From assembly GCA_013695785.1 (NCBI GenBank), contig JACCZT010000187.1, positions 1-47,650 of the forward strand: a DNA stretch of 47,650 nt, written 5' to 3'. Positions 1,827-14,491 of this stretch are shown here, piece by piece. The position numbers and the translations under genes were made by a program. The notes under the pieces are model-generated. The model saw only the letters and a list, made by a program, of their open reading frames with translations. It did no database searches and had not been told where the DNA came from. Positions within the stretch are counted from its first letter, which is position 1. Each line of letters begins with the position of its first letter. The stretch is from Nocardioidaceae bacterium (GTDB taxonomy: Bacteria > Actinomycetota > Actinomycetes > Propionibacteriales > Nocardioidaceae).

Positions 1827-3263
1827 TCAGCGTGGGTGCGACGCGGGCTGGGACACGCCGCAGTGCGCATTTCGCTCGACCGGGACGGGATACTGATGCG
1901 GCACCTTGCGTACCAACGCCGCGGCCACCAGCCCACCTGCGACGAGCAGACCGGCGCAGATGAGCATGGCGGTGGTGAAGCCGCGGTCGAAGACGCCGGG
2001 GTCGGCGTAGTCGTCGCCGCGGATCCCGACCAGCGCCGGCAGGGCGGCGACGGCGAGCAGTTGCGCCGTACGGGCCACGGCGTTGTTGATGCCAGAGGCG
2101 ATGCCCGCCTGAGTCCGTGGTGCTGCGCCGAGGACGGCGGTCGTCAGCGGTGCCACCAGCATCGACAGGCCGAGGCCGAACACGACGACGCCTGGCAGCA
2201 CGTCGCGCCAGTACGACGTGTCCGGGCCGATGCGCAGCAGCAGCAAGAGCCCTGCTGCGCTGAGGAGCGGGCCGACGGTCATCGGCAGCCGCGGACCGAT
2301 CCGCGTCGCGACGGCACCGGCGTACGACGACAGCACCAACATCAGGACGGTTATCGGGAGGCTCGCGGCGCCGGCCGCGAGGGGGGAGTATCCGGCGACG
2401 ACCTGCAGCTCCAGGACGAGCAGGAAGAAGGTACCGCCGAGGGCGGCGTACACCGCGAGGGTGACGAGGTTGGCGGCAGCGAAGACCCGCTCGGCGAACA
2501 GCACCAGCGGCACCAGCGGGTGCGGGCTGCGGCGCTCCTGCACCACGAACGCCACCAGCAGCAGCAGGCCGGTTACCGCTGGGACCGGTTCGGAGGCAAT
2601 GAGACCGTACGTGCCGAACGCGAGCGCAGCGGCGGCGAGGACGATACCGGGGACGTCGAACGACCGCGGGGCGTCTGGGTCGCGGCTCTCTGGTACGTGC
2701 CGTACGGCGATCCACACGATGGCGGCGGCGACCGGCACGTTGATCAAGAAGACCGCCCGCCAGCTGACCGCGCCGACCAGCCACCCGCCGAGCAACGGGC
2801 CGACGGCGGCAGCGACGCCACCCAGCCCTGACCACGCGCCGATGGCGGCACCCCGGTCGCTTTCATCGATCGAGGCCGAGATCAGCGCCAGGCTCCCAGG
2901 GGTGAGCAGCGCACCGCCGACGCCTTGCAACGCCCGTGCGGCGACGAGGGTCTCGATGTTGGGCGCAAACCCGCACAAAAGTGACGCCACCGCAAACCAC
3001 ACGACGCCGACCAGGAACACGCGGCGACGCCCCCACCGGTCGCCCAGCGCGCCGCCGAGAAGGATGAACGACGCGAGCGTCAACGTGTAGGAGTTGACCG
3101 TCCACTGCAGGCCGGCGACGCCGGTGCCGAGGTCGGCGCCGATATCGGGGAGGGCGACGTTGACGACGGTGGCATCCAACATCGCCAGGCTCGAGCCCAG
3201 CACGGTGGCCGTCAGGAGCCAGCGCCCACCGGCGGACTTGATCGCAAGGGTGTCGCCCACCAC
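1827..3263 (-). CDS. MFS drug-efflux transporter, DHA2 (14-TM) type
   Basis: About 478 residues with many hydrophobic helices, fitting the 14-helix DHA2 family of proton-coupled multidrug exporters. Diagnostic motifs are LDATVVNVALP in TM1 (about 29-39) and GALGDRWGRRR in the TM2-TM3 loop (about 71-81). GSLALISASI and GPLLGGWL, the latter resembling motif C of exporters, are also present. The start is uncertain: GTG codons at 3263 and 3260 precede the conserved region, while an in-frame ATG at 3299 lies inside the 22-bp repeat array and would add 12 unlikely residues. No regulator gene lies beside it. Substrate unknown. Confidence 0.88.
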   Translation of the reverse strand: MVGDTLAIKSAGGRWLLTATVLGSSLAMLDATVVNVALPDIGADLGTGVAGLQWTVNSYTLTLASFILLGGALGDRWGRRRVFLVGVVWFAVASLLCGFAPNIETLVAARALQGVGGALLTPGSLALISASIDESDRGAAIGAWSGLGGVAAAVGPLLGGWLVGAVSWRAVFLINVPVAAAIVWIAVRHVPESRDPDAPRSFDVPGIVLAAAALAFGTYGLIASEPVPAVTGLLLLVAFVVQERRSPHPLVPLVLFAERVFAAANLVTLAVYAALGGTFFLLVLELQVVAGYSPLAAGAASLPITVLMLVLSSYAGAVATRIGPRLPMTVGPLLSAAGLLLLLRIGPDTSYWRDVLPGVVVFGLGLSMLVAPLTTAVLGAAPRTQAGIASGINNAVARTAQLLAVAALPALVGIRGDDYADPGVFDRGFTTAMLICAGLLVAGGLVAAALVRKVPHQYPVPVERNAHCGVSQPASHPR

Positions 3264-3296
3264 GTCATCGTGCCACCCAACCCCCACCCTCCCAGT

Positions 3297-3336
3297 CATC
3301 CGCAGGTTCTGGCCCCTCGATCTGCAGGTTCTGGCC
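3297..3336. repeat. 22-bp repeat array, copy A (two units, second degenerate)
   Basis: On the + strand, CATCCGCAGGTTCTGG followed by CCCCTC (3297-3318) is followed by a diverged second unit, GATCTGCAGGTTCTGGCC (3319-3336). It directly abuts the TAA (3338-3340) of the HAD gene. It is inverted with respect to arrays B and C. Confidence 0.85.
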
Positions 3337-3337
3337 G

Positions 3338-3922
3338 TTACAGGATGCGGACGACCGATTCCACATCCGCTTCGGACAGACCGTTTCGCGGATCGGTTCG
3401 GACGCACCGCACGGAGGTCGAGATGTCCTCGCGAGCATTGAAGTACGCGATATCGGCATCGCCGCACTCGTCGTCTATCCACACGACAGGTCGTCGGGTC
3501 GCCGCGGCGAGGTCGCCCACATACGAACTCTTGAAGTACACCCCGTCACCTTCGAGTATCCGCATGCGTTCTTGGAACTCGCGCCGCTGGCCGAGTGAGC
3601 TGGTGTCAGTGGGGCGGGTGAACTCGAGGTACGGCCAGGTCGCGCCGATCCCGCCGATGGCCGGCGACAACTCTCTTGGTGCGGCGGCCTCCCACATGGT
3701 GGCCCAGAACAGGTCGCAGCGTCCTTCTTCGGCGGCATCGGTCAGCGGGCACAACAGCTCGACGAGGTCACGCCTGGTCCTGATGAGGTAACCGAGGATG
3801 GTGTGCGTGACGTAGTCGTCGGGCTCGTCGGGGGCCAGGGCATTGAGCGCACCGTCGACATCGACGCCGATGAGCGGTCGTCCGGGATGGGCGAGCAGCC
3901 GTTCGTCGTACACCATGACCAT
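3338..3922 (-). CDS. HAD-like hydrolase of the actinobacterial 'Swiss Army Knife' HAD type
   Basis: A 194-residue protein with the HAD motif I GVDVDGALN (nucleophile D21, acid/base D23) and a late acidic motif VVWIDDE (D150, D151, E152). TMWE at about 76-79, WPYLEF and TDP..GLS fit the HAD domain first described in Swiss-Army-Knife RNA repair proteins (HAD_SAK_2). Such stand-alone proteins are common in Actinobacteria; the substrate is unknown, with nucleotides or RNA ends as candidates. The start is one of ATG 3922, ATG 3916 or GTG 3913, none with a clear SD. Reading further upstream would translate the repeat array, which is why the longer version is rejected. The gene sits alone between two inverted repeat arrays. 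Confidence 0.8.
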   Translation of the reverse strand: MVMVYDERLLAHPGRPLIGVDVDGALNALAPDEPDDYVTHTILGYLIRTRRDLVELLCPLTDAAEEGRCDLFWATMWEAAAPRELSPAIGGIGATWPYLEFTRPTDTSSLGQRREFQERMRILEGDGVYFKSSYVGDLAAATRRPVVWIDDECGDADIAYFNAREDISTSVRCVRTDPRNGLSEADVESVVRIL

Positions 3923-3995: not shown

Positions 3996-5372
3996 TCAGT
4001 GGGTCCAGCGGAGGGCGGCGGCGACCTCCTCCTCGGTCGCGGTGGCGAAGTGCTCCATCTCGGCATGCCGCACGGCCAGGATCGAGCCGCGAAGGTCCGA
4101 ACCGAACGCCTCGGCCAGCACGTCGTCGGCTTCGAACAGCACCGTGCTCGTCTGCAGACTCTGCGGCAGCCGGTCGATGCCACGTGACTGCAGCTCCTCC
4201 TCGCTCAACACCGCCGGATCGACCTCGACCGGCGCGGGCAGCTCGGTCCCTGCCGCCATCCCCGCCGAGCCGACGGCGATGATTCCTGCGAGCACGAGGT
4301 ACGGGTTGGCCAGCAGGTCGAAGCACTTGACCTCGACGTTGGCCGCCCAGGCGTCACTACCGGCCGACCCGGTCACCATCCGCAGCGCGGCCTCGCGGTT
4401 CTCCAGGCCCCAGCACGAGTACGCGCCCGCCCAGTGCGACGGCACCAGCCGCAGGTAGCTCGCGACGCTCGGGGCGCCGATCGCCATCAGCGCAGGCAGA
4501 TGCTCCAGCAAACCGGCGGTGAAGGACGCCCCCTCCGCGGTCAGGCCGAACTCCGCATCACCGCCGGCCATCAGGTTGTGTCCGTCGCGCCAGAGGCTGA
4601 CGTGGACGTGTCCACCGTTGCCGACACCAGAGATGTCGACCTTGGGGGAGAAGGACGTACGCATGCCGTGCCGCCTCCCCACGGCGCGGATCGTGTCGCG
4701 GACGAGGATCGAGGTGTCGGCCGCTGCGAGCGGGTCCTCGGCGGCGACGGACACCTCGAGCTGTCCGGCGGCGTACTCGGGGTGGAACTGCTCGACCTCG
4801 ACACCCTGGGCGGTCAGCGCCTCGAGCAGCTCGCGGGCGTAGTCCGAGACGTCCCCGAGGCGAGCCAGGCTGTACGCCGGTCCGAGCGCCGCGGGGACGA
4901 AGTCGTCGGTGCCGGCGACCGAGACCACCCACTCGACCTCGACGGCGGCCGACATCGTGATGCCCTGGGCGGCGAGGTCGTCCACCAGCCGGCGTAAGAG
5001 CAGCCGCCCACAACCGGCATGTGGTTCGCCGGACTGCTCGTACCGTTCCCCGGGTATCCAGGCCCATCCTGGCTGCGCGGCGAGCCTGACCACGCGGTCG
5101 AGGTCGGGCATGATGCGCAGGTCACCGACGGGCGTCGAGCCGTCCGGAGCCGCGGCGATCGAGTCGTTGAAGGTGAACAGGTCGAAGCTCGGCGTCGTAC
5201 CCGCACCCCAGGCAGCGAGCTGGGGGAGCCGCGCGAGCGGCACGGACTTGACCCGGGTGATGCCGGCGTTGTCGGTGAAGGTCGTCGCGACCGCGACGAC
5301 GCCGTCCGCCGCCAGGGCGTCGACGAGCTGTTCGGCGCGTGCCTTGCGATCCTCGCGTGCTGTCACGTCCAT
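3996..5372 (-). CDS. Glutamine-synthetase-like gamma-glutamyl-amine ligase (FluG C-terminal type)
   Basis: A 458-residue type I GS-fold protein expected to couple ATP hydrolysis to joining glutamate to an amine. Visible active-site elements are VEVEW (metal ligands E145 and E147), FHPEYAAGQLE (E199, E206), GNGGHVHVSL (H255, H257) and ENREAALR (R326, R331). The last departs from the NRSA.IRIP consensus of housekeeping GlnA, and no NLYDLP adenylylation site is seen, so this is a specialised paralogue like GlnA3/GlnA4 (polyamine or ethanolamine) or FluG. ATG 5372 is preceded by GAGAG at about 10 nt; longer versions run into non-coding sequence. It is divergent from the permease with about 160 bp between them, probably holding promoters for both directions. 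The amine substrate cannot be read from sequence. Confidence 0.85.
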   Translation of the reverse strand: MDVTAREDRKARAEQLVDALAADGVVAVATTFTDNAGITRVKSVPLARLPQLAAWGAGTTPSFDLFTFNDSIAAAPDGSTPVGDLRIMPDLDRVVRLAAQPGWAWIPGERYEQSGEPHAGCGRLLLRRLVDDLAAQGITMSAAVEVEWVVSVAGTDDFVPAALGPAYSLARLGDVSDYARELLEALTAQGVEVEQFHPEYAAGQLEVSVAAEDPLAAADTSILVRDTIRAVGRRHGMRTSFSPKVDISGVGNGGHVHVSLWRDGHNLMAGGDAEFGLTAEGASFTAGLLEHLPALMAIGAPSVASYLRLVPSHWAGAYSCWGLENREAALRMVTGSAGSDAWAANVEVKCFDLLANPYLVLAGIIAVGSAGMAAGTELPAPVEVDPAVLSEEELQSRGIDRLPQSLQTSTVLFEADDVLAEAFGSDLRGSILAVRHAEMEHFATATEEEVAAALRWTH

Positions 5373-5530
5373 GTTCTTCGCTCTCTCGTCGGGGTGCGCC
5401 CAGGATATTGCCATCTGACAGTACGACGTCACCGCGCTGCTGGTGCGACGGACTGCCGATGCTGGACAGCCTTCCCTGCCGCGGCCACACTGATCCCACG
5501 GGGGCCGGTCTAGCGACATCGAAATGGGCC

Positions 5531-7012
5531 ATGACGGTACCGAGCAACGAGACCACGAGCGATGCGGAACGCCGCCGACTGCGTCGAGGCCTGTCCGTGT
5601 GGCAGGCGGTGGGCATCTCGGTCGCCTTGATGGCGCCGAGCATGGCCATCAACATCAACCCGCAGGGTACGGCGGGGCTCGTCGGGCGGGCGACACCGCT
5701 GGCGTTCCTGCTCGCCGCGATAGCGGTGCTACTCATCGCCTACGTGTTCGTGCGGCTGTGTCAGTACTACCGGCACGCGGGCAGCGTGTACGCGTTCGCC
5801 GGCGCGACTCTCGGGGCGCGTGCCGGTGCCGTCGCCGGCCTCGGCCTGATGGCGACGTACATGTTCTACGGGATGGTCACCGCGTCGGCCGCTGGCATCT
5901 TCGGCTCCGCATTCCTGGACCAGATCGGACTGTGGACCGATCAGCCTTCCTGGGCGGGATACGCCATCGCCGGGCTTGCGCTCGTGCTTGCCTACATCTC
6001 CTCGGTGCTTCCCGCCCGCCGCGCCACCACCACCTTGCTCACGATCGAAGGCATCACGGTGGCGCTGATCGTCATCATCGCCGCGATCGTGCTGGTACGG
6101 ATGTTGGCCGGCAACGCGCCGGGCGACGCGTCCGTCACACTCGACGTCTTCAAGGTCGCGTCCGGCACCGACTCCTCGACGTTGTTCCTGGGCATCGTCT
6201 TCGGTCTGTTGTCGTTCGCGGGCTTCGAGGCCGCGGCCACGCTGGGGGAGGAGGCAAACCAGCCGCAGCGCGACATCCCCCGCGCGATCCTCGGGACCGC
6301 GATCTTCGGCGGGCTCTACTTCGTGGTCATCACCGCCATCGAGATGATGGCGTTCGGCACCGACGAGGCGGGGGTTGCAGCCTTCACCGGCTCATCGGCG
6401 CTGATGGGCGACATCGGCACGTCCTACATCGGCGCCTGGGTCGGCGACATCGTCACCCTGGGGGCCGCGATCAGCGCCTTCGCATGCTGCCTGGCCTGCA
6501 TCGTGGGTGCGGCGAGGCTGCTGTTCGCGTTGACCCGCGACTTCGCACCGGACAACCCGATCGCCGGCACCGCGGCCAACGGCTCGCCTGCCGTAGCCTC
6601 GGGCTCCATCGCCGCGCTGATCGCCGTGATCGCTGCGGTGTGGGCCCTGTTCTTCGACGCGAAGATCGAGGACACGTTCTTGTGGAGTGCCACGATCGGG
6701 ACCCTGATCCTGATCGTGGCCTACGTCCTGGCCACCCTCGGGTGTATCAAGCTGGTGTTCATCGACCGCAAGCTCGACGTGCCGCAGTGGCAGGTCGTCA
6801 TCCCTGTCGCGGCGCTGCTCATGCTCCTCTACACGCTGTACCGCAACGTGTTCCCGTACCCCACCGAGGGTCCGGCCAGGTTCTTCCCGGTCGTGGCGTT
6901 CGGTTGGTTGCTGCTCGTTGCGGTGGTCGTGATCCTCTCCCCGGGCCTGGCCCGGCGGCTCACCGCAGGGCTCGTTGCCGCCGACGAGCGCTCAGACGAC
7001 GCGACGCACTGA
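5531..7012 (+). CDS. APC-superfamily amino acid/amine permease
   Basis: A 493-residue protein with about 12 hydrophobic helices. The first helix region has the APC signature SVWQAVGISVALMAPSMAIN (about 24-43), and FAGFEAAATLGEEANQPQRDIPRA near 215-240 is the classic APC consensus for helix 6 and the following loop. It should import an amino acid or amine by proton symport. ATG 5531 is chosen because the next upstream in-frame Met lies in non-coding sequence. It is head-to-head with the GS-like ligase and followed by two amidohydrolases, so its substrate is probably the compound the ligase or hydrolases act on. Confidence 0.88.
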   Translation: MTVPSNETTSDAERRRLRRGLSVWQAVGISVALMAPSMAININPQGTAGLVGRATPLAFLLAAIAVLLIAYVFVRLCQYYRHAGSVYAFAGATLGARAGAVAGLGLMATYMFYGMVTASAAGIFGSAFLDQIGLWTDQPSWAGYAIAGLALVLAYISSVLPARRATTTLLTIEGITVALIVIIAAIVLVRMLAGNAPGDASVTLDVFKVASGTDSSTLFLGIVFGLLSFAGFEAAATLGEEANQPQRDIPRAILGTAIFGGLYFVVITAIEMMAFGTDEAGVAAFTGSSALMGDIGTSYIGAWVGDIVTLGAAISAFACCLACIVGAARLLFALTRDFAPDNPIAGTAANGSPAVASGSIAALIAVIAAVWALFFDAKIEDTFLWSATIGTLILIVAYVLATLGCIKLVFIDRKLDVPQWQVVIPVAALLMLLYTLYRNVFPYPTEGPARFFPVVAFGWLLLVAVVVILSPGLARRLTAGLVAADERSDDATH

Positions 7013-7060
7013 GACCCCTTCGAGCGGTGGGCGAGGCATCGGTCTGACAGAGTGCTGCCC

Positions 7061-8191
7061 ATGCGCAGCTGGCCGGAGGTGCCGTCCATCCGCTTCGACG
7101 CGACGGCGATGGTCGACCACCACTGTCACGGTGTGTTGACCGAGGACCTCGACCGGGCCGGTTTCGAGGCGCTGCTGAACGAGGGCAACGGCGCGGGCGC
7201 GCTGGGTACGACGGTCTTCGACTCGATGCTCGGTCTGGCGGTACGCCGGTGGTGCGCCCCCGTGCTCGGTCTGGAGCCTCTCGCTGACGCGCAGGCGTAC
7301 CTCGCCAGGCGCACCGAGCTCGGCGCCGAGGAGGTGAACAACCGCTTCGTGTCGGCAAGTGCCACGGCGGACTTCGTCGTCGACACCGGTTTCGGCGCCG
7401 GGAGGGTCACCGGTGCGGAGCGGACGGCCGCCTATGCCGGCGGGCGCGGTCACGAGATCGTGCGGCTCGAAGCCGTTGCCGAGGAGCTGCTGGAATCCGG
7501 CACCACCCCCGCCGACTTCGCCGAGCGGCTGCGCGAACAGCTCACCGGCCGCGGCGCCGTCGGGGCCAAGAGCATCGCGGCGTACCGCACCGGCCTGGCG
7601 CTCGCCGCGGGCAAGCCGACCGACGACACCCTCGTCGCCGCGCTCGGTGAGTGCGGGCGCGACGCCGACGGAACGATCCGGCTGGCGCACCCGGTGGTGC
7701 ACGCGTGGCTCGCGCACACCGCTGTGGAGGAGGGGTTGCCGCTGCAGATCCATGTCGGCTACGGCGACAACGACGTCGACCTGGCCGACTGCGACCCGTT
7801 GCGCCTGACCGCGTTCCTGCGAGCGACCCAGGACCGCGGTACGCCGGTGCTGCTGCTGCACAACTACCCGTTCCACCGGCACGCTGCCTACCTCGCCCAG
7901 GTCTTCTCACACGTGTTCATGGACGTCGGTCTCGCGACGCACAACACCGGTGCGCTGTCCACGGCGTTGGTGCGGGAGTCGCTGGAGCTCGTACCGTTCG
8001 CCAAGATGCTGTACTCCTCCGACGCCTTCGGACTCGCCGAGCTGTACCACCTGGGCAGCCTGCTGTTCCGCCGGTCGATGTCTGAGGTGCTGGCCGGCCT
8101 GGTCGACGCCGATGAGATGGGTGAGACGGACGCGGAGCGCGTCGTCGACCTGGTGGCCCACGACAACGCCCGCCGGGTCTACGCGCTGTGA
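7061..8191 (+). CDS. FluG-type metal-dependent amidohydrolase
   Basis: A 376-residue amidohydrolase-superfamily TIM barrel. Predicted metal and catalytic residues are the H21-x-H23 pair (VDHHCHG), K170 in GAKSIAAYRTG (the usual carbamylated-lysine position), H231 (LQIHVGYGD), H267 (LLLHNYPFHRH) and D321 (LYSSDAFG). This set and the AYRTGL block fit the amidohydrolase half of FluG and of gamma-glutamyl-amide or related hydrolases. ATG 7061 is preferred over GTG 7052; neither has a good SD. It is 48 nt after the permease and overlaps the M20 gene by 4 nt, so the three are likely one transcript. It probably hydrolyses an amide made or imported by its neighbours. Confidence 0.84.
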   Translation: MRSWPEVPSIRFDATAMVDHHCHGVLTEDLDRAGFEALLNEGNGAGALGTTVFDSMLGLAVRRWCAPVLGLEPLADAQAYLARRTELGAEEVNNRFVSASATADFVVDTGFGAGRVTGAERTAAYAGGRGHEIVRLEAVAEELLESGTTPADFAERLREQLTGRGAVGAKSIAAYRTGLALAAGKPTDDTLVAALGECGRDADGTIRLAHPVVHAWLAHTAVEEGLPLQIHVGYGDNDVDLADCDPLRLTAFLRATQDRGTPVLLLHNYPFHRHAAYLAQVFSHVFMDVGLATHNTGALSTALVRESLELVPFAKMLYSSDAFGLAELYHLGSLLFRRSMSEVLAGLVDADEMGETDAERVVDLVAHDNARRVYAL

Positions 8192-9333
8192 AGGTCGAGC
8201 TCGCCAAGCTGTGGCAGGAGGCGGTACGCACAGAGATCCCTGGCGCCGTCGAGATGCGGCACCGTCTGCACGCCGATCCGCGGATCTCCGGTCAGGAGGA
8301 GGACACCGCTGTCGCGGTGACGGAGGCAATCGGGTGTGGCCCGGGGAAGGTCGTGGCCGGGACCGGGCGGCTCATCGACATCACCGGTGTCGGGCCGCGC
8401 GTGGTCGTCGTACGTGCGGAGCTGGACGCCCTCCCGGTCGTCGAGCTCACCGGTGCTCCGTGGCGGTCGGGAAACCTTGCGATGCATGCGTGCGGGCACG
8501 ATGTGCACCTGGCGGCGCTGACGGCGGTCGTGCGCGCCGCCGCGGAGATGGACCTCCCGGCACGGCTTGTCGCGCTCCTGCAGCCACGAGAGGAGGGGAC
8601 GGACAGCGGTGCGCGGGACGTCGTCGACGAGGGGTGGACGGCGGACTGGGACGGCATCGTCGCGGCGCACGTGCAACCTCAGCTCCCGCGCGGCGTCATA
8701 GGGGTGACTCCGGGGCCGGTGAACGCCGCGACGGCGGAGCTCACGATCGAGGTCACCGGACGCGGTGGGCACTCGGGCTACCCGCACACCGTCGACGACT
8801 CGGTGCTGGCGCTGTCCTCGATCGTCGTGGCGTTGCAGCAGCTCGGTTCGCGGCGGATAAACCCGGTTCACGGGTGCGCCATGATGATCAACCAGCTCAA
8901 TGCGGGGTCGGCCGCCAACGTCGTACCCCCACGCGCCGTCGCGCGCGGCACGATCCGCACCATGACCGTGTCGGACACTCGGCTCGCCGAGGCGGCGATG
9001 CGCGACATCGTGCACCACGTCGCCGCCGCGCACGGGTGCGAGGGGATCTTGGTCATGCACCCGGCCGAACCCGTGCTGGCAAATGACCCGGTATACGCGA
9101 CCTCGGCGGGTCTGTTGCTCGCCGGGCTGGGACACGAGGTCGACTCCTCGTGGCGCTCCTTCGGCTCCGATGACTTCTCACACTTCTCGAGCGTCTCCCG
9201 CGGCCTGATGATGTTTGTCGGCACCGGGAGCCAGACCGGTGGCCTGCACGATGCCTCCTACCTCCCGCACGACGACGACATCGCCCTGGTCGCCGATGCC
9301 TTGATCGCCGGCTACTGCGCCGCCGTCGGTTAG
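8188..9333 (+). CDS. M20-family amidohydrolase (N-acyl amino acid / hippurate hydrolase type)
   Basis: A 381-residue member of the M20D peptidase/aminoacylase family. Metal-site motifs are MHACGHDVHL (about 92-101), REEGTDSGARD (about 132-142, with the general-base Glu), AAHVQP and GLHDASY near the C-terminus. The lid/dimerisation domain begins at TIEVTGRGGHSGYPH. It likely removes an acyl or amide group from an amino acid conjugate. The GTG start at 8188 overlaps the upstream TGA (GTGA), indicating translational coupling with the FluG-type hydrolase. It is the last gene of the putative operon. Confidence 0.88.
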   Translation: MKVELAKLWQEAVRTEIPGAVEMRHRLHADPRISGQEEDTAVAVTEAIGCGPGKVVAGTGRLIDITGVGPRVVVVRAELDALPVVELTGAPWRSGNLAMHACGHDVHLAALTAVVRAAAEMDLPARLVALLQPREEGTDSGARDVVDEGWTADWDGIVAAHVQPQLPRGVIGVTPGPVNAATAELTIEVTGRGGHSGYPHTVDDSVLALSSIVVALQQLGSRRINPVHGCAMMINQLNAGSAANVVPPRAVARGTIRTMTVSDTRLAEAAMRDIVHHVAAAHGCEGILVMHPAEPVLANDPVYATSAGLLLAGLGHEVDSSWRSFGSDDFSHFSSVSRGLMMFVGTGSQTGGLHDASYLPHDDDIALVADALIAGYCAAVG

Positions 9334-9404
9334 GTTTGCACACGTTCTCCGGCCACAGATGGAACCGCGCGGGACCTGCCGGACACAAGGGGGTGAACAC
9401 AGTC

Positions 9405-9989
9405 GTGCCGAGCGTCGAACCACTCGACCTGCGCCTGTGGGATCTCGTGCGGCAGGAGGACGAGCACGCCTTCGCTCAGCTCTATGACATGTACGCCAAA
9501 CCGGTCTACAACTTCGCCTTCCGGCGGCTCGCCTCCTGGTCTGCTGCCGAGGAGGTCGTGCAGTCTGCCTTCACGACCGTGTGGCGGCGGGCCCGGGTCG
9601 GTGACCTGCCGCCCCTACAACGCGACAGCGCCTTGCCCTACTTCCTGGGCGTCGCCGGACGCGAGTGTGACAATGCCGCGCGCGGCCGGAACCGGGCGAC
9701 AGCGCTGGCCCGCAAGAGCCGGTTCGACCTGGTCGAGGCCGACCACGCCGACGCGGTGGCGGCACGTGTTGACGACGAGGCACAGATGAGCGAAGTGCTC
9801 GCGATCGTGCGTCGGTTGCCGCAGCGCCAACGCGACGTCCTGGAGCTGGTGGCATGGAGCGGTCTGAGCACGGCCCAGGCCGCTGACGCGCTCGGCCTGC
9901 CCGAGGGCACCGTCAAGTCCCGGCTCTCACGGGCACGCAGCCAGCTGCGTGACATGATCGGCGACCGGAGGGGGAGCGTACATGACTGA
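9405..9989 (+). CDS. ECF-family RNA polymerase sigma factor
   Basis: A 194-residue sigma-70 family protein with only regions 2 and 4. Region 2 spans about residues 10-75 (AFAQLYDMYAKPVYNFAFRR, then AAEEVVQSAFTTVWRRA), and region 4 spans about 125-180 (VLAIVRRLPQRQRDVLELV, then the helix-turn-helix TAQAADALGLPEGTVKSRLSRAR). GTG 9405 is preferred because AAGGGGG at 9387-9393 is a suitable SD at 11 nt; GTG 9393 is too close to it. It overlaps the next gene by 8 nt, as sigma/anti-sigma pairs often do. Confidence 0.9.
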   Translation: MPSVEPLDLRLWDLVRQEDEHAFAQLYDMYAKPVYNFAFRRLASWSAAEEVVQSAFTTVWRRARVGDLPPLQRDSALPYFLGVAGRECDNAARGRNRATALARKSRFDLVEADHADAVAARVDDEAQMSEVLAIVRRLPQRQRDVLELVAWSGLSTAQAADALGLPEGTVKSRLSRARSQLRDMIGDRRGSVHD

Positions 9990-13369: not shown

Positions 13370-14491
13370 GTGCCACGCTCGATCACACCCTCGAGTTTCA
13401 GACTCACGTCACGCAAGTCGATCGCCATGACCTCGGCTGTTCTCGCCGCGACAGCGCTGGCAGCCGCACCCACCGCCTCGGCCGCCGACCCAGACCCGCA
13501 GGCACGTTCTGGCGATGCCCAGACGACCGCGGTCGAGCAGTCCTTGCGCAGTGCCGACCAGGCGCAGCGGATCAGCCGCTCGGTCGACAGCGCGGCCGGG
13601 TCGTACATCGACAGCGCCCGCCGGGTAGTCGTCAACGTGACGGATCGGGCCGATGTCGCCAAGGTCGAGGGCAGCGGCGCGGAAGCCGCGGTCGTCAGGT
13701 ACTCCACCCGCCAGCTCGACAAGGCGACCGCCAAGCTCGGCCGCCAAACCTCCATCCCGGGCACCGCCTGGGCAGTCGACCCGACGACCAACTCCGTCAC
13801 CGTGTCGGCCGACTCCACCGTCAGCAAGAACCAGCTCGGCAAGATCAAGGCCGTCACGAGGTCGCTGGGTGACAAGGCGACACTGAGCAGGACCGCCGGA
13901 GCCTACAGCACCCGGACCAGGGGCGGGGACGCGATCTACGCCCAAGGCGGCGGCCGCTGCTCACTCGGCTTCAACGTCCGCAGCGGGTCGCGCTACTACT
14001 TCCTGACTGCTGGCCACTGCACCAACATCTCCGCCAACTGGTGCCGCGACAGCGGTCAGACCAACCTTCTCGGAACCAGCGGGCGCGGCAGCTTCCCCGG
14101 CAACGACTACGGCATCGTCAACACTTCGGCGACCACGGCAGCAACCAACCCGGGATCGGTGAACCTCTACAACGGCCGCACCCAGGACATCTCCTCTGCC
14201 GGCACGCCGACCGTCGGCCAGACGGTGCAGCGCAGCGGCAGCACCACAGGGCTCCACAGCGGCCGGGTGCAGGCACTCAACGCAACGGTCAACTACGCCG
14301 AAGGCCGGGTCACCGGGCTGATCCAGACCACGGTGTGCGCAGAGTCCGGCGACTCCGGCGGTTCGCTCTTCGCGAGCACCAGGGCGCTCGGGTTGACGTC
14401 CGGTGGCAGTGGTAACTGCAGGACCGGTGGCCAGACGTTCTTCCAGCCGGTGACCGAGGCGCTCAGCGTCTACCAGGTCAGCGTCTACTGA
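13370..14491 (+). CDS. Secreted streptogrisin-like serine protease (S1 family) with propeptide
   Basis: A 373-residue prepro-protease. A signal peptide (about 1-38, cleavage after ASA) is followed by an alpha-lytic-protease-type propeptide (about 55-180) that folds the enzyme and is removed. The mature chymotrypsin-like domain starts near [10 protein letters not shown]. The catalytic triad is H216 (LTAGHC), D246 (GNDYGIV) and S329 (GDSGGS), with cysteine pairs around C197/C217 and C323/C350. GTG 13370 follows AGGGAG at about 10 nt. It is a single-gene unit ending at the strong hairpin at 14520. The 133 bp upstream hold no other gene. Expected to be an exported, broad-specificity endopeptidase. 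Confidence 0.93.

Follow-up and report, generated by a model that had tools for sequence, protein, structure and literature searches.

It is proposed, with a probability of roughly 0.72, that positions 3996 to 9333 of the sequence analysed here (the window, a stretch of 47,650 nucleotides) hold a divergent four-gene gamma-glutamylation locus of the GlnA3/SCO6961 type. The locus is real, conserved and probably functional, and it is largely ordinary, being a common variant order of the already studied Streptomyces GlnA3 family, whose members handle polyamines. The source genome is actinobacterial, 2.08 Mb in size and 81% complete; the nearest named relatives at the four-gene locus are Nocardioides and Segeticoccus.

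Organization of the locus

An earlier note on this DNA had described a GS-like gene divergent from a permease and two hydrolases, and this layout was confirmed for all four genes in position and in strand. The ligase gene (3996..5372, minus strand) encodes a protein of 458 aa. On the plus strand are the genes for an APC-superfamily permease (5531..7012), an amidohydrolase-superfamily protein of the 2QPX/SCO6961/FluG N-terminal type (7052..8191) and an M20D-type metallo-amidohydrolase resembling YxeP, ILR1 and AgaA (8188..9333). The ligase and permease starts are separated by 158 bases, and the M20D start overlaps the amidohydrolase stop by 4 bases.

Other neighbouring clusters of ORFs were considered as parts of the module and set aside, as they resemble taxon synteny. 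Immediately past the stop codon of the M20D gene, and likewise on the plus strand, an ORF for an ECF sigma factor begins (9336-9989); next to the module of a Nocardioides relative (L020) no such ORF was detected. Elsewhere in the window are a DHA2-family MFS drug-efflux transporter (1827-3482; TIGR00711 above cut-off) and a secreted, trypsin-like serine protease (13370-14491), which by eye is of the streptogrisin type.

Identity of the ligase

The ligase ORF is open up to 5519, and homologues support the ATG at 5372 as its start. The protein is matched by the Pfam models Gln-synt_C (274 bits) and Gln-synt_N_2, and its best solved relative is PA5508 (PDB 4HPP, E=2.7e-63). Curated family models assign it no substrate: the scores were far below the cut-offs for both type I GlnA (TIGR00653, 195 versus 429 bits) and PuuA (NF045547, 327.7 versus 650 bits).

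Two features distinguish the protein from a true glutamine synthetase. The Glu of the ammonia flap is replaced by W314, and a conserved motif reads ENREAALRMV, as compared with RNREAALRI in PA5508 and ETREAAVRVV in the GlnA3 orthologue described below. The earlier observation that the housekeeping NRSA.IRIP consensus has been lost is therefore correct. Since PA5508 and the GlnA3 orthologue lack the consensus as well, the loss is a trait of the whole family of amine ligases.

For comparison with GlnA3 itself, the orthologue was identified in a Streptomyces locus (L172/L178) by means of the published glnA3 and SCO6960 primer sites, three of which (glnA3-F, His-R and SCO6960-F) matched exactly. 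The ligase at that locus possesses 12/12 published GlnA3 residues at the published numbers, and it was therefore taken to be the orthologue of GlnA3 (SCO6962). A Streptomyces APC-GS-AH-M20 cluster (L069, L080; AH, amidohydrolase) was also considered as SCO6962 and was rejected, as both the tree and the residue spacing group it with PA5508.

The window ligase has 11 of the 12 GlnA3 residues (E145, E147, A161, E199, E206, N252, G253, H255, H257, R308 and R331), the sole mismatch being S319 in place of T327. The metal, glutamate and ATP residues are kept, and W314 and A161 are situated at the replaced Glu327 and Tyr179. A161 corresponds to A169 of GlnA3, where a small Ala gives the amine pocket more room. 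The flap Glu is reported to be Trp in both PauA7 (W296) and GlnA3 (PMC5403932); residue 327 of GlnA3 is given as Trp in that paper but as Thr in PMC8998196. The orthologue identified in this analysis has Thr at 327, with its aligned Trp five residues earlier.

A maximum-likelihood tree was constructed without FluG and Rv1878 sequences. It is apparent that the window ligase and the GlnA3 orthologue fall in one clade of 34 rows with support of 100/100, and that PA5508 and a second Streptomyces ligase lie outside it. The tree thus groups the protein with GlnA3, and the common descent that it indicates excludes PauA7 and the other sampled GS-like proteins. On this evidence, the window ligase is placed as a co-orthologue of GlnA3. 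W314, the NREA motif and the tree together uphold the view that the protein is an amine ligase and not a glutamine synthetase, and its assignment as a GlnA3-type gamma-glutamyl-amine ligase is considered very probable.

The hydrolases and the permease

The amidohydrolase scored 25.1 bits against the Pfam model Amidohydro_2, just below the cut-off of 26.4, and matched PDB 2QPX with E=1.5e-35; its fold class is the TIM-barrel. Translation possibly begins at 7061 instead of 7052. The ligands HxH, Lys, His, His and Asp are aligned in the window protein, its relatives and 2QPX, and this set forms the two-metal site in the amidohydrolase superfamily. The protein is 46% identical to the product of the gene directly after glnA3 in Streptomyces (SCO6961).

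The second hydrolase contains the Pfam domains Peptidase_M20 (PF01546) and M20_dimer (PF07687), and it passes the NCBIfam model TIGR01891 (196 versus 154 bits), which identifies it as an M20D amidohydrolase. Among solved structures it matched 1YSJ (E=8e-45) and 6SLF (E=3e-30), and the nearest structures are YxeP, ILR1-like and N-acyl-glutamine aminoacylase.

The permease scored 82 bits against AA_permease (PF00324/PF13520) and 89 bits against TIGR00909, far under the cut-off of the latter. Relatives have a permease at the same place that is 70-73% identical. In one locus, near a contig end (L021:3324-3560), the permease adjoining the ligase has an apparent internal deletion in which query residues 13-43 run into 435-483; this gap seems to reflect decay or an assembly fault.

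Predicted pathway and substrate

In the proposed route, the permease would import an amine or an amine-containing compound, and the ligase, with ATP, would join the amine to the gamma-carboxyl of glutamate, a polyamine being the most likely substrate, as for GlnA3. Both metal-dependent hydrolases would act on intermediates of the route by cleaving their amide bonds, and glutamate and a carbon skeleton would be released. The outcome would be detoxification or the salvage of carbon and nitrogen.

The earlier note held the substrate to be unknown. Its class is less open than was supposed, because GlnA3 is a demonstrated gamma-glutamylpolyamine synthetase (PMC5403932; PMC8998196) and because polyamines induce glnA3, SCO6961 and SCO6960, which are probably transcribed together (PMC5403932; PMC8998196). 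A polyamine is given about an even chance of being the substrate of the window ligase. Confidence is moderate mainly because the locus lacks an oxidoreductase: neither that enzyme nor an aldehyde dehydrogenase was found in the module, and a full Puu-type polyamine route needs them. The same genome has, on another contig (C46:4000-16000, L184), a conventional gamma-glutamylation operon with genes for a GntR regulator, a GlnA4-like GS, an aldehyde dehydrogenase, a short-chain dehydrogenase (SDR) and a C26 gamma-glutamyl hydrolase. The window route either borrows enzymes from that operon or is purely hydrolytic. At about 52% identity to the GlnA3 orthologue, the substrate of the window ligase may also differ from that of GlnA3. 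The lack of a SCO6960 counterpart and the low scores with the PuuA and GlnA models likewise tell against the proposed reading.

Two alternatives, both unlikely, bear on this scheme. In the first, the substrate of the ligase would be no polyamine but a monoamine or another amine (ethylamine, ethanolamine or an aromatic amine), with the permease and hydrolases serving the same compound. PMC6478659 presents PA5508, the nearest solved structure, as a ligase for aromatic monoamines, the FluG-type enzyme CsTSI links glutamate with ethylamine (PMC9909507), and genes for polyamine oxidation are absent from the locus, all of which is consistent with this explanation. The tree, however, groups the window ligase with GlnA3 and away from the PA5508 clade, the GlnA3 pocket residue A169 is retained as A161, and GlnA3 favours spermidine and spermine (PMC8998196).

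In the second alternative, which concerns the order of the steps and is compatible with either class of substrate, an imported conjugate with an amide bond would first be split by the amidohydrolase and M20D protein to give an amine or amino acid, and the amine so released would then be capped by the ligase. Such an order is suggested by the names of the solved M20D relatives 6SLF and 1XMB (N-acyl-glutamine aminoacylase and IAA-amino acid hydrolase), and by the proposal that the ligase is fed by the product of the amidohydrolase (PMC6478659). It is doubtful in view of the prediction that SCO6961 acts late, after glutamylation and oxidation (PMC5403932).

A self-contained route free of oxidoreductases, in which the amidohydrolase, M20D protein and ligase would jointly hydrolyse and gamma-glutamylate an imported non-polyamine amide or amine, is less probable still. 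A route of this kind would, if true, differ from both the Puu-type and the GlnA4-type pathway, and the role of the amidohydrolase half of FluG would become clear from it. The locus also widens the known distribution of GlnA3-type loci.

Conservation of the neighbourhood

Conservation was assessed in 80 named actinobacterial loci, fetched by the amidohydrolase family alone. They are those that match the window amidohydrolase best, and the counts thus apply to its near relatives and not to SCO6961-type amidohydrolases in general. Within 4 kb of the amidohydrolase, a ligase was found in 64 of the 80 loci, an M20D gene in 26 and an APC permease in 24; all four families occurred together in 16. The order in the window (GS-/APC+/AH+/M20+) was observed in 11/80 loci and the order APC+/GS+/AH+/M20+ in 5/80. 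The divergent order, with the ligase opposite APC-AH-M20, occurs also in Nocardioides, Segeticoccus and Amycolatopsis. The ligase of the five loci with the second order is of the PA5508 type, about 33% identical to that of the window, and the APC/AH/M20 set therefore accompanies two ligase lineages.

The genomes of such loci contain just 5 or 6 PF00120 matches each, so that the adjacency of GS and amidohydrolase genes in 64/80 loci is far beyond chance. It spans several orders (GS-/AH+, AH+GS+ and GS+AH+) and many families, and a search based on the ligase, among relatives of the genome, gave an adjacent amidohydrolase in 9 of 13 informative loci. That unrelated amino-acid genes have come together by accident or through synteny alone, as might be argued from the lower counts for APC (24/80) and M20D (26/80), is highly improbable given the frequency and breadth of the GS-AH pairing and the occurrence of APC, AH and M20 genes in Streptomyces with a different, PA5508-type ligase.

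No further gene family was consistently linked to the module among the loci examined. The genes between APC and AH vary in Geodermatophilaceae and Planosporangium, where a TPM-domain protein, an epoxide hydrolase, an FAD protein and a class III aminotransferase were observed.

The intergenic region

A promoter-like element, TGGACA-N17-CACACT, is situated 5′ of the permease operon (5463..5491, plus strand). The form T[GA]GACA-N17-CA[CG]ACT was present at this place in each of the six loci in the clade of the window, whose sequences are related; outside the element, their intergenic regions have diverged. The element was not found on the other strand in these six loci, nor in 11 more distant ones (Amycolatopsis/Geodermatophilaceae/Actinocrinis). 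The shuffle control preserved base composition only. The element reads toward the permease and resembles a housekeeping promoter, which is suggestive of a putative promoter. An operator shared by the ligase and permease genes was also considered and was rejected, as there was no conserved palindrome and just the promoter-like element was found.

Comparison with known systems

The earlier note presented the locus as a split FluG. The underlying domain homology is real, as the 4HPP and 2QPX matches indicate, but the comparison is not new, having been published for SCO6961-6962. Fungal FluG and plant NodGS and CsTSI share with the window a 2QPX-type amidohydrolase domain and a GS-like ligase domain. 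Those proteins are fusions, whereas in the window the two domains are encoded by separate genes on opposite strands, with no known developmental role; no single polypeptide contains both. The two halves of FluG have already been assigned separate equivalents in bacteria, SCO6961 and SCO6962 (PMC6478659). In that work 2QPX (LSEI_0440) serves as a stand-in for the N-terminal half, and in Aspergillus the function of FluG can be taken over by LSEI_0440 together with PA5508 (PMC6478659). CsTSI, from tea, forms theanine from glutamate and ethylamine (PMC9909507). The transporter and second hydrolase added here narrow the candidate substrates for the FluG/SCO6961 amidohydrolase half, and the separate genes permit single knock-outs in Nocardioides or Amycolatopsis, which is less simple in the fungal fusion.

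PA5508/PauA7 (4HPP) has the same Trp for the flap Glu and the same NREA motif as the window ligase, but belongs to a separate clade (100/100). Of the mycobacterial pair Rv1878-Rv1879, Rv1879 is presumably an amidohydrolase. GlnA3Mt (Rv1878) of Mycobacterium tuberculosis is a spermine ligase and a published GlnA3 orthologue, with a preference for spermine (PMC11841054). One locus with a window-family ligase (L033) has all ten listed GlnA3Mt residues, with an amidohydrolase and APC gene adjoining; that ligase belongs to a sister clade and is about 35% identical to the window's.

In Streptomyces sp. B-S-A6, an amidohydrolase start (LVDHHCHG) lies directly 3′ of a glnA3-type ligase (L140:8640-8990) with the frame lost, and this gene has apparently decayed; a second cluster in the same organism (L141) has an intact amidohydrolase.

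No description of APC or M20D members of GlnA3-type loci was found in the literature, although earlier notice is possible; Iyer 2009 and Strong 2003 are cited for such gene clusters by PMC6478659. The closest known system is glnA3-SCO6961-SCO6960 of S. coelicolor. The likeness lies in the ligase clade (about 52% identity to the orthologue) and in the same-family amidohydrolase adjoining the ligase (46% identity). The Streptomyces genes run in a single direction, and the third, SCO6960, encodes a DUF4916/NUDIX protein that has no counterpart in the window, whereas the window ligase is divergent and its partners include APC and M20D genes. The locus is, then, a GlnA3/SCO6961 module that carries APC and M20D genes in the absence of SCO6960.
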